Source: Verrucomicrobiales bacterium (GTDB lineage: Bacteria > Verrucomicrobiota > Verrucomicrobiia > Verrucomicrobiales > DEV007). Taken from it: 64,000 nt of DNA. Below the pieces are notes generated by a model that worked only from the letters and a program-made list of their open reading frames with translations, was not told where the DNA came from and did no database searches. Location: contig JAEUHH010000098.1 in assembly GCA_016795505.1 (NCBI GenBank), positions 1 through 64,000 on the forward strand, in the 5' to 3' direction. Made by a program: the position numbers and the translations under genes. This document shows positions 2,584-63,618 of the stretch, one piece after another (within the stretch, counting starts at the first letter, position 1; each line of letters starts with the position of its first letter).

Positions 2584-2651
2584 TCCGATCCGACCGGGTT
2601 GGTTCTCCGATGGAACCGGGTTGCATCGGAGAAGTGACCGGGTTCGATCGG
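2584..2651. repeat. GATCGG palindromic repeat, copy 1
   Basis: A diverged copy with TCCGATC at 2584-2590 and three ACCGGGTT half-sites, the last running into CGATCGG at 2645-2651. It belongs to the family whose best half-site is ACCCTGTTTGATCGGA. Confidence 0.6.
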
Positions 2652-4644: not shown

Positions 4645-4723
4645 AAAGTAGCTTGGGCTTCAGCCCAAGGGCAGGTCGTGCGGCTGCAGTTCCGGCGGAT
4701 TGGGCTAACGCCCAAACTACTTT
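4645..4723. repeat. Palindromic MITE/REP-like element, copy 2
   Basis: Arms at 4645-4669 and 4699-4723 match the arms of copy 1 (2671-2764) with a few changes (TTCAGCCCAAG, and CTAACGCCCAAACTAC). The core again starts GGCAGGTCG. It abuts the end of the cassette array. Confidence 0.75.
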
Positions 4724-12580: not shown

Positions 12581-12642
12581 AACAGGGTTGAATCGTCGAT
12601 GAAACCCTGTTTGATCGGAGATCAAACCCTGTTGCATCGGAA
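12581..12642. repeat. GATCGG palindromic repeat, copy 2
   Basis: Contains ACAGGGTTGAATCG, then AAACCCTGTTTGATCGGA (12602-12619) and AAACCCTGTTGCATCGGA (12624-12641). It lies between the methyltransferase and the sulfatase and makes a false upstream start (ATG 12599) in the sulfatase frame. Confidence 0.8.
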
Positions 12643-21989: not shown

Positions 21990-22039
21990 TTCCGATGAGA
22001 CAGGGTTGGATCGGAGATGAAACAGGGTCTGATCGGAAA
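21990..22039. repeat. GATCGG palindromic repeat, copy 3
   Basis: Read on the minus strand it is TTTCCGATCAGACCCTG, TTTCATCTCCGATCCAACC and CTGTCTCATCGGAAA. It lies between two pseudopilin genes of one run and could affect their relative expression. Confidence 0.8.
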
Positions 22040-35900: not shown

Positions 35901-35964
35901 TCAGACCCGGTCGGATCTCCGGAGAGACAGGGTCTCATCGGAGTGACGACCCTGTCTCATCGGA
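35898..35964. repeat. GATCGG palindromic repeat, copy 4
   Basis: Starts with TGATCAGACCCGGTCGG, whose TGA is the stop codon of the secretin gene, then GAGACAGGGTCTCATCGGA and ACCCTGTCTCATCGGAA. Confidence 0.75.
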
Positions 35965-41002: not shown

Positions 41003-41052
41003 TTCCGATCGAACAGGGTATCATCTCCGATCCTACCCTGTTTGATCGGAAA
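41003..41052. repeat. GATCGG palindromic repeat, copy 5 (best palindrome)
   Basis: TTCCGATC, then ACAGGGT on the left; ACCCTG, then TTTGATCGGAA on the right; the middle is ATCATCTCCGATCCT. The arms are nearly perfect inverted repeats. It sits between convergent genes (CBS protein and sigma factor). Confidence 0.85.
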
Positions 41053-47447: not shown

Positions 47448-49766
47448 ATGCGGCGTCGATTGACCAGAATCCTGTGCTGGATTGGCGCCGCGTGGTTGCT
47501 TGGCTATTACGCTTTTCCCGCGGCGCTCCCGCTGCCCGGTGGGCTGGTCGGCGAGGCTTCCTTTGCGCCCGGAGTCACCTACACCGATCGGGAGGGGCGA
47601 CCGCTGCGGCGCCTGCTGGCCGATGGTGAACTGCGGATCGATGCCCCGGTGACGATGGACGAAGTGCCGCGGCATCTGATCGATGCCACCCTGGCGGCGG
47701 AGGACAGCCGGTTTCGTTTTCACGGCGGCATCGATTTCCTGGGCCTTGCGCGGGCGATTCGTGACGCCGTGCTGCATCGGGAATTTGTCTCCGGAGCCTC
47801 CACCGTCACCCAGCAACTCGTCAAGATCAGCTCGCCGCCCCGGCCACGTGATTTGCGAGCCAAGGTCGTCGAGATGGCCTTCGCCCGGAAGTTGGAGATG
47901 ATCTGGGACAAGGACGCCATCCTGGTGGCTTACCTGAACCGGCTTCCTTACGGCAATCAGCTCACCGGTTGCCGGGCGGCGGCCCGCGGCTATTTCGACA
48001 AGCCGATCGGGGATCTGTCGATGGCTGAGAGCGCTTTCCTTGCCGCCCTGCCCAACAAGCCGACGCGATTCAATCCCTACCGCAATTTCGACGGCGCGCG
48101 CCAGCGGCAGCTCTGGATTCTCGATCGCATGCGGGAAGAGAGCTGGATCACCGATGCCGAGCACGCTGCAGCGGTCGGGGAGCCGCTCCGGCTGGTGGCG
48201 GGCGGGCCGGCGGGAGAGTTTGAGGCGCCGCATTTCATCGAACTGATCCGGAGCCGCGAGGCCGAGACCGGGCGGGTGGCGGAGTCGACCACCCTTGATC
48301 TCTCCCTGCAGCGGTTTGTCGAGGGGGCGATCGATCAGCAACTGACCGCCCTCGACGCGCAGATCGGGCACCGGCTCAGCACCCAGGCTTCCGTGGTCGT
48401 GATCGAGAATGCCACCGGCGGGGTCGTCGCCCTGGCCGGCTCGCGTGGCTTTCACGATTCGGCCGGAGGCCAGAACAACGGCGCCTGGACGCCCCGATCG
48501 CCGGGTTCGGCGCTGAAGCCGTTTACCTACCTGCTCGCCCTCGAGCGCGGTCTCGGTCCGGGCTCGGTCTTTGCCGATGTCCCGGTCGAGTATCCCACGC
48601 CCACCGGCGCCTATCGGCCGGTGAACTACGACCGGCGCTTCCGCGGACCGGTGACGATGCGGCACGCTCTCGCCAATTCTCTCAATGTGCCCGCCATCCG
48701 TGCCCTCGACGGCATCGGCGGCCCGGCTCGGCTCCACGAGGCGCTGACGAGGCAGTTGGGATTCACCGGGCTCGATCCGAATTACGCCACCTACGGCCTC
48801 GGGCTCACCCTCGGGACCGCCGAGGTGCGGCTGCTGGAACTGACCAATGCCTACGCCTGCCTCGCCCGGCTGGGAATCGCCGCGCCATACCGGCTGACGC
48901 GGGAGAAACCGATGGAACCGGGTCTGATCGGAGGAGAGACCCTGTTTGATCGGAATGCCTGCTGGCTGGTGGCCGACATGCTGAGCGACAATCTCGCCCG
49001 GGCGGCCGAGTTCGGCCTGCATTCGCCGCTGCGGTTTCCGTTTCGCGTCGCGGCGAAGACGGGGACCAGCACGGACTACCGGGACAATTGGACTCTCGGC
49101 TTCACCCCCGCGCACACTGTCGGGGTCTGGGTGGGACATTTTGGCAATCAGCCGCTCCAGAATGTCTCCGGTGTCAGCGGCGCGGGGCCGATTTTCCATG
49201 CCGTGATGACCGAGCTGAACCGCCGCCAGCCGGCTGGCTGGTACGAGCGGCCCGAGTCCCTGGTGGAGGTCGAGATCGATCCCCGCACCGGGCGACGGGT
49301 GGTCGAGGGCTCCGGCTTTCGTCCCCGGCACACGGTGCGTGAGTGGTGTCTGCGGGATCGCCTGCCGTCGCCGACGCGGGCGGAGGACTATGACGAGGCG
49401 GGGCGGGTGCGGCTGGAGCCCATCTATGCCGCGTGGCTCACGGGAGAGGGGAAATCCTTTGCCGACCGATACGTCGCCGATGCCGCCGCGGCGGCAGAGC
49501 CCAGGCTGAGGATCGTGAGCCCGCTGCCCGGCACGGTGGCCTATCTGGACCCCGATCTGCCGGGCGGTGGGCGTCGCTTTCCGCTGAAAGCCGAGAGCTA
49601 TGGCATCGCGGAGGTTCGCTGGTCCAGCGAAACGCTGAAAATCGAGTCCGAGTCCGCCACCGGCCGGTCCTGGCTCATCCTCGTGCCGGGCTCGCATGAG
49701 ATCGTCGCCACCGACCCGCGCACTGGCTTGCGCTCCGCCGCGACGATCGCGGTGGAGGCTCTGTGA
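47448..49766 (+). CDS. pbpC: Penicillin-binding protein 1C
   Basis: A 772-residue bifunctional peptidoglycan enzyme anchored by an N-terminal helix (ILCWIGAAWLLGYYAF). GT51 domain: AAEDSRFRFHGGID (catalytic Glu near residue 86), GASTVTQQLVKIS and KARE-like motif. Transpeptidase: SPGSALKPF (SxxK near 350), LANSLNVPA (SxN) and AAKTGTSTD (KTG near 534). A C-terminal beta domain follows from about 680. Residues 487-503 (KPMEPGLIGGETLFDRN) are encoded by an inserted GATCGG repeat, in frame, between the SxN and KTG motifs. It forms a two-gene unit with the a2M gene. Confidence 0.92.
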   Translation: MRRRLTRILCWIGAAWLLGYYAFPAALPLPGGLVGEASFAPGVTYTDREGRPLRRLLADGELRIDAPVTMDEVPRHLIDATLAAEDSRFRFHGGIDFLGLARAIRDAVLHREFVSGASTVTQQLVKISSPPRPRDLRAKVVEMAFARKLEMIWDKDAILVAYLNRLPYGNQLTGCRAAARGYFDKPIGDLSMAESAFLAALPNKPTRFNPYRNFDGARQRQLWILDRMREESWITDAEHAAAVGEPLRLVAGGPAGEFEAPHFIELIRSREAETGRVAESTTLDLSLQRFVEGAIDQQLTALDAQIGHRLSTQASVVVIENATGGVVALAGSRGFHDSAGGQNNGAWTPRSPGSALKPFTYLLALERGLGPGSVFADVPVEYPTPTGAYRPVNYDRRFRGPVTMRHALANSLNVPAIRALDGIGGPARLHEALTRQLGFTGLDPNYATYGLGLTLGTAEVRLLELTNAYACLARLGIAAPYRLTREKPMEPGLIGGETLFDRNACWLVADMLSDNLARAAEFGLHSPLRFPFRVAAKTGTSTDYRDNWTLGFTPAHTVGVWVGHFGNQPLQNVSGVSGAGPIFHAVMTELNRRQPAGWYERPESLVEVEIDPRTGRRVVEGSGFRPRHTVREWCLRDRLPSPTRAEDYDEAGRVRLEPIYAAWLTGEGKSFADRYVADAAAAAEPRLRIVSPLPGTVAYLDPDLPGGGRRFPLKAESYGIAEVRWSSETLKIESESATGRSWLILVPGSHEIVATDPRTGLRSAATIAVEAL
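48908..48955. repeat. GATCGG palindromic repeat, copy 6 (inside pbpC)
   Basis: ACCGATGGAACCGGG, then TCTGATCGGAGGAGAG, then ACCCTGTTTGATCGGAA. It keeps the pbpC frame open and encodes about 16 residues between the SxN and KTG boxes. Confidence 0.85.
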
Positions 49767-57450: not shown

Positions 57451-57927
57451 ATGACCGCCCGCCACGCCACCCGCCTCCTCGCCATCGCCTACGGCCTGTT
57501 CTGGCTGTGGAGCGGCGTGGCCAAGTGGAAAGACCCCGGCGCCTTCGCCGTGGCGGTGCGGAATTTCCAACTGCTCGTCGATCCCTTCATCGCCGCCGCC
57601 GCGCTGTTCATCCCCGTGCTGGAGATCGTCTGCGCCCTCGCCATCATCTTCCGCCGGGCCTCCCTCGGCGCACAGGCGCTGCTGTGGCTGAGCCTGGTGG
57701 TTTTCACCGCCGCCATCGCCGTGTCCTGGGCGCGCGGGCTCGACATCTCCTGCGGCTGCTTCGGCACCGGCGACGGCTCGACGGTCAATTACCCGGTCAA
57801 ACTCGCCCAAAACCTCGCCCTCCTCGCCGTCGGCGGCTGGCTGCTGTGGCAGGAGTGGAAACGCCCGGCAGCGAGCCTCCCTCCCGCCGCCTCCCCGAGC
57901 GAGCCGGTGCGAAGCAACCCTGTTTGA
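57451..57927 (+). CDS. MauE/DoxX-like membrane protein
   Basis: A 158-residue protein with four TM helices: LFWLWSGVAKWKDPGAFAVAV (N-terminal signature), FIAAAALFIPVLEIVCALAII, LWLSLVVFTAAIAVSWARGL and LALLAVGGWLLW. The GLDISCGCFG motif holds a Cys pair typical of MauE, which with thioredoxin-like partners helps periplasmic disulfide formation. Its stop codon TGA (57925-57927) is supplied by a GATCGG repeat, so the C terminus was probably altered by that insertion. Confidence 0.8.
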   Translation: MTARHATRLLAIAYGLFWLWSGVAKWKDPGAFAVAVRNFQLLVDPFIAAAALFIPVLEIVCALAIIFRRASLGAQALLWLSLVVFTAAIAVSWARGLDISCGCFGTGDGSTVNYPVKLAQNLALLAVGGWLLWQEWKRPAASLPPAASPSEPVRSNPV

Positions 57928-57975
57928 TCGGAGAGGCTACCCTGTTTGATCGGAAACCCGACCCGGTCTCATCGG
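57916..57975. repeat. GATCGG palindromic repeat, copy 7
   Basis: AACCCTGTTTGATCGGAGAG, then CTACCCTGTTTGATCGGAAA, then ACCCGGTCTCATCGG. The TGA at 57925 ends the MauE-like gene, and TCA at 57969-57971 ends the amidase gene on the other strand. Confidence 0.85.
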
Positions 57976-61045: not shown

Positions 61046-61896
61046 GCCTGCTGGATCGTGTGTGGTCTTGGGTTTCCGATCCAGGACCACTGATCAGAGG
61101 TCGCTTGGGGTGGGCGGAATGGCTGCGGCTTCCGAGTCTGGAGCAGCTTTAAGATACCCCGCGTCATCGAGTGGGGGCTTTCCCGCAGATTCACGCTGGC
61201 CCGCAGAACCATCGTCCCAGAGGACTATCTGGAAGTTTTCCTGAATCGGTGGGCAAAAGCCTGACTCACCAAAAGGGATGACGTCGAGAAACTCTCGTGG
61301 ATCACTCCCCATTGCGACGCCCGTTTCCCTGTTGCTCCATTTTACCATTCGCGTCATTCGTTTCATTCCTTTCCATTCGCGTTAGACCATTCCGGCGAGG
61401 CTCCGCCTCCCTTGTTCCTTGCCGTCCCGCGACCACCAATCGCCGAAACAAAGCGCCAACGGCCCGTCGCATACCAGCCCAGGGCAACGCTCTGGGAACC
61501 GGAGTCAGGGCATGTGGCGCGCCTTGAAGGGGCGCCGCATCCATCGCCGGCAGAGATGCCGGCGCTCCCAGGCTCGGCCAATGGCGGCGGGTGGTGGGGA
61601 AGGGTGCCATTTTCTTGGCAATGCCTCCCTGAGTGAGAAAGGCTGGGAGACTCAGCCCCGATGATTTCACCCTCCATGATTTTGCCCTCCTTGGTGCTGC
61701 CCCGATGCAACCGGCCTCAATCGGAGTCGGCACCCTCCCCGGTGAAAAAAGGGGTGCCGAGACCGCACGACTGCCATCACCCCGGGGCTGCTTTGGGATT
61801 GCGGCGGCGGCTGGAGATGGGCATACTCCATGGCAGTGCCGAAATGAAAGGGAATCGATTGCTCATTCCGGCGAAACAACGACCTCTCCACAAAAC
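61046..61896. other. Gene-poor stretch with several hairpin repeats
   Basis: No convincing gene. Holds a 37-bp repeat at 61347-61383 (inverted copy at 63396-63432), a hairpin CCCAG..CTGGG around 61478-61496, a 21-bp palindrome GGCGC-CCTT-AAGG-GCGCC around 61516-61536 and CGCCGGCA..TGCCGGCG at 61545-61564. An 80-codon minus-strand frame (about 61094-61312) has no recognised domain. Confidence 0.55.
61347..61383. repeat. 37-bp repeat, left copy (CATTCGCGTCATTCG type)
   Basis: ATTCGCGTCATTCGTTTCAT followed by TCCTTTCCATTCGCGTT; the reverse complement occurs at 63396-63432 with one mismatch. Confidence 0.8.
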
Positions 61897-63189
61897 ATGA
61901 AAGCCAGACACCTGATGGGATTGCTATTCGGATTCGCCCTGGGGACTGCGATGGCCCAGGGCGATCTGTTGGAATGGACCAACCGGAAGGGGCAGACGAT
62001 GTCGGCCCGGTTCGTGAAGTTCGAGGGCGGGGTGGTGACGTTTCAAAAGCCGGACGGGCAGATCTTCACCTATCCGGCGGCGGATCTGGATCTCAACAGT
62101 CAGGCGCGGCTGGCCGGGCTGATGAAGAACCCGGTGGCGACGGCGATGCCGCCCGCCTACCGGTCGCGGTGTTCGGCCGAGGCGCGGGCGCAGGCGTTCG
62201 CCGACGGGGGTGGCGTAGCGGAGGAGGAAGCGGCGCTGGAGCGGGCGCTGACATGGCTGGCCACGAGGCAGAATGCCGACGGGTCCTTTGGCGATGAATT
62301 TCACTCGGCCATGACCGGACTGGCAATGCTGGCGATGCTGGGCCGCTGCGAGATGCCGGGCGGCTCGGCGCTGGGGGAATCCGTGGCCAAAGGGGGCCTC
62401 TATCTCATGGAGACGGCGAAGACGAACCGGGGGCTCATGTGGAATGGGGAGACGGGGTTGCATTTGAGCTACGAGCACGCCATCGCCACGCACGCGTTGG
62501 CGGAACTGCTGGGGATGACCCGCGGGTCGAACCGGGAGGTGCCGGGACTTGAGACCACGGTCAAACGGGCGGCGGAACACATCGTGGACGGTCAGACCCG
62601 GACGGGCGGGTGGTTCTATGGCTACGACTCCAGTCTGGAAGGGGGCGACATGTCGCTGAGCCTCTGGCAGATGGGCGCCCTGCGAGCGGTGCGACGGAGT
62701 GGGATCGACTCGGAAAGAGTGCCGCGGGCGTTGGATCGTGCGGTGTCCTATCTGGGCCGGGCGCAGGATGGTGAAGGTGCCTACAAGTACCGGCTGACGG
62801 ACGACAAGGGCAAGGCGACGCTGACGGGTGGCGCGCTGTATCAACTGCACCGGTGGGGCGAGGGTGGCTCGACCGACTTTGAAAAGGGCATGGTCTATCT
62901 GACGCAGACCTACGCCAATCCGCGACCGGGCTTGTCTCTCTACACGCCGTATTTCAATACCCAGATTTTTCATGTGAAGGGCGGCGATCCCTGGCGGAAC
63001 TACCGCACCCGGTTCATACCCGAATTGCTGGCCAAGCAGAATGGCGACGGATCGTTCATGGAGCCGGTGGGAACGGGAATGATCACGGCGGACAACCAAC
63101 TGATGAATACGGCGTGGGCGGCGCTGATCCTGGAGGTCTATTACCGCGAGCCGGTCGAGCCTGAGAACGGAGGGAGCGGTAGCCGCTGA
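61897..63189 (+). CDS. Exported SHD1-plus-toroid protein (squalene-cyclase-like fold)
   Basis: A 430-residue protein. Signal peptide residues 1-20. Residues about 25-75 (WTNRKGQTMSARFVKFEGGVV, FTYPAADLD) form an SLA1-homology-domain-like beta module. Residues about 105-425 form an alpha-alpha toroid: LTWLATRQNADGSFGDEF, AGLMLYL-type helices, ALDRAVSYLGRAQDGEGAYKY and LLAKQNGDGSF repeats of the QxxDGSW type. No DxDD or DDxxD catalytic motif is visible, so it is not an obvious cyclase; a secreted binding role is possible. Such fusions are frequent in Verrucomicrobiota and Planctomycetota. Flanked by the inverted 37-bp repeats. Confidence 0.8.
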   Translation: MKARHLMGLLFGFALGTAMAQGDLLEWTNRKGQTMSARFVKFEGGVVTFQKPDGQIFTYPAADLDLNSQARLAGLMKNPVATAMPPAYRSRCSAEARAQAFADGGGVAEEEAALERALTWLATRQNADGSFGDEFHSAMTGLAMLAMLGRCEMPGGSALGESVAKGGLYLMETAKTNRGLMWNGETGLHLSYEHAIATHALAELLGMTRGSNREVPGLETTVKRAAEHIVDGQTRTGGWFYGYDSSLEGGDMSLSLWQMGALRAVRRSGIDSERVPRALDRAVSYLGRAQDGEGAYKYRLTDDKGKATLTGGALYQLHRWGEGGSTDFEKGMVYLTQTYANPRPGLSLYTPYFNTQIFHVKGGDPWRNYRTRFIPELLAKQNGDGSFMEPVGTGMITADNQLMNTAWAALILEVYYREPVEPENGGSGSR

Positions 63190-63618
63190 TGGTGGCGGGT
63201 AAGGGCTGAAGGCCGAGCGACTTTTGTCGGGGGGCTGGTGGATATTGGAGCATCGATTGTATCCCGGAGGGACGACGGAAATCAGCCGGGGGTGGACCGA
63301 GTGAAAAATGGGGGAACCCCGGATGGGAATCGCCTCCAAATACCTGCGCCTCGGCAGGGGCGCGAGGCGGATAAAGGGCTCGGCTGGAATGGGTGAACGC
63401 GAATGGAAAGGAATGGAACGAATGACGCGAATCGAATGGGCACGAATGGGATCGAATCGCTCCGCACAGGCTCTGACTGGGGCGTCATCATTGTCCGGTG
63501 CCGCGAGGTTGGCCTCGGACGGGGAGGCGGGGATTGACCCCGCCAGAGTGGCAACTCGAATTTTCCCCGCAATTTCTCATCGCCGAACGGTCCGGTTGGC
63601 GGCACAATACCGGCTGTC
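63190..63618. other. Gene-free stretch with repeats
   Basis: No gene is supported. It contains the right copy of the 37-bp repeat and a run of GAATGG-type words at about 63385-63460. Confidence 0.6.
63396..63432. repeat. 37-bp repeat, right copy (inverted)
   Basis: Inverted relative to 61347-61383, 36 of 37 bases alike, about 2 kb apart, bracketing the toroid gene. Confidence 0.8.

Follow-up and report, generated by a model that had tools for sequence, protein, structure and literature searches.

A short two-unit repeat embedded in the PBP1C-type penicillin-binding protein gene of the window (the whole 64,000-nucleotide stretch of DNA analysed here) appears, from a comparison of 36 related genes, to be a DNA site preserved as such in a tolerant protein loop rather than a new protein insert. 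The chromosome-wide DNA site, of which PBP1C holds a single copy, would be an array in which 22-bp units are repeated twice, three times or, rarely, more often. The best reading of these sites, to which we give about an even chance, is that they are bound by a putative multimerising DNA-binding protein, plausibly one that organises the chromosome.

The host gene (47448..49766, forward strand) is an ORF of 772 aa encoding a class A penicillin-binding protein with the Pfam domains Transgly (residues 65-228), Transpeptidase (315-587) and BiPBP_C (679-757). Its best NCBIfam model is TIGR02073 (PBP_1c), with a score of 471 bits that lies slightly under the cut-off of 494, and the PBP1C proteins of the nearest named loci are 70-71% identical to it. 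The repeat element, a member of direct-repeat family D1, occupies 48910..48955 (residues about 488-503) and consists of arms and cores in two 22-nt units, which are in frame between the catalytic motifs SxN (411-413) and KTG (537-539). Core 1 (ACCGGGT, 48917..48923) falls in the codons of E-P-G-L, a spot at which orthologs carry CAACAGGGT, or QQG, while core 2 (ACCCTGT, 48939..48945) lies exactly 22 nt further on, in the codons of T-L-F. A preliminary description of this DNA had placed a repeat copy between SxN and KTG and proposed that it encodes part of the transpeptidase domain, with the frame staying open and the KTG box intact behind it. All of this was borne out: codons 487-503 overlap the two units, and S411/N413 and K537-T538-G539 are invariant across 25 PBP1C orthologs. 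When the segment is mapped on an AlphaFold2 model, as that description had proposed, it forms a coil of low confidence (pLDDT <50 at residues 490-493), followed by a helix from residue 502 and the KTG strand at 535-540.

The same description took the element for an insertion of about 16 residues in this lineage, and here the alignment of relatives gave a different answer. Measured from the end of ARLG to the W/Y with which the following helix begins, the loop has 29 residues in the window gene, 29, 24 and 24 in three congeners, and 25-29 in nine outgroups. It measures 24-30 residues in six motif-free clade members (G021, G086, G004, G078, G087 and G082), defined as those in which the best core pair has at least four mismatches and the loop lacks any QQG/TLF remnant. 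Thus, although the repeat encodes some 16 residues, the net gain is at most about five, and the repeat largely occupies loop-coding DNA that was already there. The length of this loop between ARLG and the pre-KTG helix is variable across the order, and the alignment did uncover repeat-rich expansions in three relatives, G083 (56 residues), G092 (53) and G076 (48). All three are real, those of G083 and G092 amounting to about 25-30 residues, and the G083 loop contains three cores and, in the form AGAGGGT, a fourth. These expansions favour a rival explanation, namely that the repeats are a mobile or self-copying family (RPE-, REP- or MITE-like) that is intergenic and sometimes in frame, with the PBP1C copy as an old insertion. 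Against it, the loops of G003 and G085 carry a full core pair and are no longer than those of relatives without one. In G059 (L106), a simple repeat, (AAATCCG)n, encoding KSEIRNPKSE, is inserted in the same loop beside the core, which indicates that the loop tolerates unrelated inserts.

Core pairs with at most two mismatches occur at the PBP1C site in 20 of the 28 members of a three-genus clade (support 94/88) and in none of the nine outgroups. A recent insertion in the lineage of the window was rejected, since congeners and the sister genus carry the repeat at the same site. An eroded copy with three mismatches is found in G013, and in G069 the residues QRG are kept at the expected place though the best pair has five mismatches. 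Where copies are few, the PBP1C site is in several genomes the sole one detected within 28-40 kb, and several element-rich genomes (G078, G082) have no copy there. A look for similar peptides in other proteins had also been suggested, and QQG-x-TLF and DRV-x-QQG are indeed encoded in other ORFs of the same genome and in the PBP1C genes of relatives.

A second rival holds that the PBP1C residues are protein-level features and that their DNA resemblance to the repeat reflects chance or codon bias. Part of the segment accords with this, as T-L-F-D-R is common to the PBP1C of congeners and the FD-x-x-A-C/W of TLFDRNACW is ancestral in the order, given that the outgroups have FDPDAC and FDEDAC. The preliminary description had expected relatives without the repeat family to lack the repeat-encoded residues. 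This proved true of QQG/TLF, which is absent from G021 and G086, the two clade genomes (both of the neighbouring genus g2) with no more than background levels of the family, but not of the ancestral FD-x-x-A-C/W. The DNA itself argues the other way. Among relatives the one motif is translated in three different frames, giving DRV, QQG or TLF, since 22 nt do not divide into whole codons. Of the 11 QQG orthologs listed, 10 code the tripeptide as CAA CAG GGT (CAACAGGGT), and G013 alone departs from this, with CAACAGGGC. In a codon test in which amino acids were fixed and codons were drawn from the usage of each gene, 11 core pairs were observed among 30 PBP1C orthologs against 0.07 expected, an excess of about 150-fold on which chance or protein-level conservation of the motif was rejected; elsewhere in PBP1C, codon identity at identical residues was 0.42, against 0.37 at saturation. 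The protein-level or chance reading is thus strongly disfavoured, and we regard it as very improbable. The preserved site in PBP1C is probably a protein-binding mark on the chromosome.

The copy in PBP1C belongs to a large family. In the 6.55-Mb genome from which the window derives (G000), core pairs of the form ACMSKGT-N15-ACMSKGT number 699, against 1 for the reversed pattern, and a 16-mer allowed at most two mismatches finds 726 matches against 2. Statistics for this genome come from 863 kb (13%) read base by base and from pattern counts over the whole genome; the genomes are drafts, with gene calls from a simple codon model. The 863 kb contain 88 elements, of which 68 have two units and 20 have three, all at 22-nt steps. 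They are 50-75 bp in length, are composed of 22-bp units, have ends of the type TTTCCGAT/ATCGGAAA in a column profile of 68 elements, and share the consensus TTTCCGATSArACAGGGTYTSATCGGAGATSArACCCTGTYTSATCGGAAA. The core (AC-CCT/AGG/CGG/CCG-GT) and the spacer (TC-nnn-GA) each hold a dyad centre, and the two are separated by 11 bp. The core ACAGGGT/ACCCTGT and the TC..GA spacer are common to the genera, and the arms are lineage-specific, with GATC-type arms in G000, ACAGTC/TTGAAT-type arms in G085 and GTTCG-type arms in G025. The motif, strongly over-represented in relatives as well, is carried by genera g1, g2 and g11 of one Verrucomicrobiia family, with the other genera of the family and order at background. 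Copy density among relatives ranges, at one mismatch or fewer, from 91 to 1107 pairs, with G021 and G086 at background.

The element had also been described as palindromic, a term that is not supported in the hairpin sense. Compensatory pairing at symmetric positions showed no excess over the base-composition expectation in 68 elements of G000 or in 50 core pairs each from G085 and G088, and the window has no Rfam match. The absence of covariation in three genomes speaks against a hairpin and for independent half-sites, as would be expected for protein binding; a hairpin or RNA element was rejected on this basis. Linkage between columns among elements is mostly local (<=5 nt), within half-sites.

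Six further copies are spread along the window: three-unit copies at 2593..2643 (cores at 2593, 2615 and 2637), at 12582..12632 (likely just upstream of a gene whose ORF the simple caller starts within the copy), at 35905..35955 (intergenic) and at 57917..57967, 9.0 kb after the PBP1C copy; and two-unit copies at 22000..22028 (intergenic, with ends TTTCCGAT...ATCGGAAA) and at 41013..41041, 7.9 kb before it. Around the PBP1C copy, the DNA is largely taken up by two long genes. In the 863 kb of G000, 62 of the 88 elements are intergenic, though intergenic DNA makes up 15% of the sequence, and convergent gene gaps are favoured (19/53, odds ratio 3.2, P = 0.0007). Only about 13 of the 88 are located deeper than 150 nt within an ORF. 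The ORF-internal copies in other real genes are mostly outside Pfam domains, and some ORF-internal matches appear to be fortuitous or to result from ORF starts called too far upstream, an example on our reading being the match at C100:41031 in a PolA-like motif. Protein insertion, put forward earlier as the element's behaviour, is not supported as its main one, given this intergenic majority and the fact that PBP1C conserves the core as DNA and not as a peptide.

Elements are spaced about 8-10 kb apart along the chromosome, and more evenly than random placement would give. The coefficient of variation (CV) of the spacing in G000 is 0.53, against 0.91 +/- 0.09 where distinct intergenic gaps are chosen at random, and none of 5000 shuffles was as even; gaps under 3 kb number 1 against 20 expected. 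When one-mismatch copies are included, the CV in G000 is 0.48, and gaps above 16 kb number 4 against 12 expected. At this one-mismatch setting spacing is also even in G085 and G078 (another genus), with P = 0.024 and P = 0.004, respectively; under strict matching in G085, evenness by CV is not significant (P = 0.54), and close pairs are still too few (P = 0.017). Regular spacing is strong in G000 and nominal in G085 and G078. On contigs C498 and C278 of G025 (L161, L162), the two that carry several copies, gaps are 1.6-3.5 kb, a denser arrangement than in G000.

The same data bear on the mobile-family explanation, and in part favour it. Hundreds of dispersed copies, an intergenic bias and an excess in convergent gaps such as has been reported for REPs are all in keeping with it, as are restriction to one clade and greatly differing copy numbers. 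Near-identical element pairs are in excess (80 against 45 +/- 9 from block shuffles), and near-identical four-unit arrays with ACCGGGT/ACCCGGT cores occur on three contigs of G000 (C17:9718, C43:65910 and C91:31549), which suggests recent copying of at least some arrays. Random insertion, by contrast, would not produce even spacing, the flanks of the most similar element pairs share nothing, and no GTAG/CGTC tag was found at the element ends in the column profile of 68 elements. Hairpin covariation is absent, unlike in REPINs, where compensatory changes are common (PMC3116915). A link to Y1_Tnp transposases was rejected, as elements are found in 5 of 17 Y1 loci (~2-3 kb each), about what density predicts. 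All considered, we judge a mobile family, the main rival to the best reading, to be rather unlikely. Another candidate for positional conservation may be the almost identical element ACAGGGTCGGGTYCCATCCCCGACCCTGT, seen in species of genus g2 at G028 C99:15776, G067 C18:16924 and G088 C26:3037 and C27:4279.

Comparison with described repeats sharpens these distinctions. Rickettsia RPEs are scattered repeats that lie in frame within unrelated genes, whose protein products tolerate the added peptides (PMC10969869), and the present family resembles them as a dispersed repeat that can lie in frame within a gene and encode tolerated residues. RPEs, however, are about 150 bp, while the present elements are 50-75 bp, mostly intergenic and evenly spaced, and the window PBP1C shows no net 16-aa insertion and conserves the DNA core, not the peptide. 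In-frame genic copies that add residues, the hallmark of RPEs, are not a feature of the family overall and were seen only in the few relatives with expanded loops (G083, G092, G076). REP, BIME and REPIN families are likewise hundreds of short symmetric repeats, mostly intergenic, with a convergent-gap excess and a minority in ORFs; the present elements differ in lacking the GTAG/CGTC tag, compensatory pairing and any Y1 transposase link, and in their exact 22-bp tandem phasing and even spacing. REPs are known in Verrucomicrobia, and in a 2013 survey GTAG repeats within genes were most numerous in Opitutus terrae (PMC3733652), so intragenic repeats are not new to the phylum.

Several other sequences were seen in passing. 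The window contains two pairs of a classical GTAG repeat (GTAGCTTGGGCTTTAGCCCAAG and its inverse) at 2671-2764 and 4645-4720; these belong to a REP/REPIN family separate from that of the 22-nt units. The gene at about 61632-63189 is flanked by a 50-nt inverted repeat (90%) at 61347-61396 and 63383-63432, which may delimit a mobile unit. Elsewhere in G000, whose genome has 17 Y1_Tnp matches, in the region C20:9098-9904 (L067, L186) a five-unit array lies ~400 nt beyond a Y1 transposase gene that bears a stop codon.

A further explanation is that the motif serves as a DNA uptake or self-recognition sequence, kept because competence or other self-marking machinery reads it. The large number of copies, their regular spacing and a constant core set in dialects that differ by lineage all recall the DUS/USS sequences, dialects of which are documented for Neisseriaceae (PMC3630211). 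Their frequency is a point of difference, as there is about one array per 8-10 kb here, against about one uptake sequence per kb in Haemophilus (PMC7811141). The phased multi-unit dyad arrays of the present family form another difference from DUS/USS. To our knowledge, strict 22-nt phased arrays of two to three dyads are not the layout of any known uptake sequence, and we hold this explanation to be improbable.

Even spacing, independent half-sites, fixed phasing and in-gene conservation of DNA accord with a protein-binding site more readily than with a mobile hairpin. Iterons are sites phased at about two helical turns, and parS-, MatP- and SlmA-type sites are dyad-symmetric, dispersed chromosome marks; the present family resembles iterons or multi-dyad operators in its phasing and the latter in its dispersal, dyad symmetry and independent half-sites, features expected of a chromosome-organising site. 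It departs from both in comprising hundreds of arrays at near-regular intervals. In such a scheme, a clade-specific DNA-binding protein would multimerise on the phased half-sites, and the sites would be kept about 8-10 kb apart because of a role in organising or marking the chromosome. The copy in PBP1C would have arisen before or early in the split of the three genera, in a surface loop ahead of the pre-KTG helix, and would have been maintained by selection, or repeated homogenisation, acting on the DNA, with the protein tolerating whatever residues the frame gives. A search for an autoregulated binding protein guided by the four-unit arrays turned up no clear candidate. Several observations tell against this scheme: the excess of near-identical pairs leaves room for loci to copy or homogenise one another; relatives differ strongly in copy density, from background to 1107 pairs, which is odd for an essential organiser; element-rich G078 and G082 lack the PBP1C copy; gaps on the two multi-copy contigs of G025 are only 1.6-3.5 kb; and the evenness in G085 loses significance by CV once matching is strict.

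It is conceivable, though we would call it doubtful, that these arrays represent a new class of architectural site, in which selection places 22-bp-phased dyad arrays roughly every 8-10 kb, in genus-specific dialects and with enough importance for a coding sequence, that of PBP1C, to hold one at a single position across three genera. For the gene itself, the case shows how a DNA site can override codon choice within a protein-coding sequence, and residues encoded by a repeat need not mean an inserted element, the loop being hardly longer than in motif-free relatives. Bacterial chromosome domains usually lack sequence marks. If the sites do organise the chromosome, their 8-10 kb spacing would amount to a sequence-defined ruler for such domains, and would offer a test case from a phylum that has received little study.
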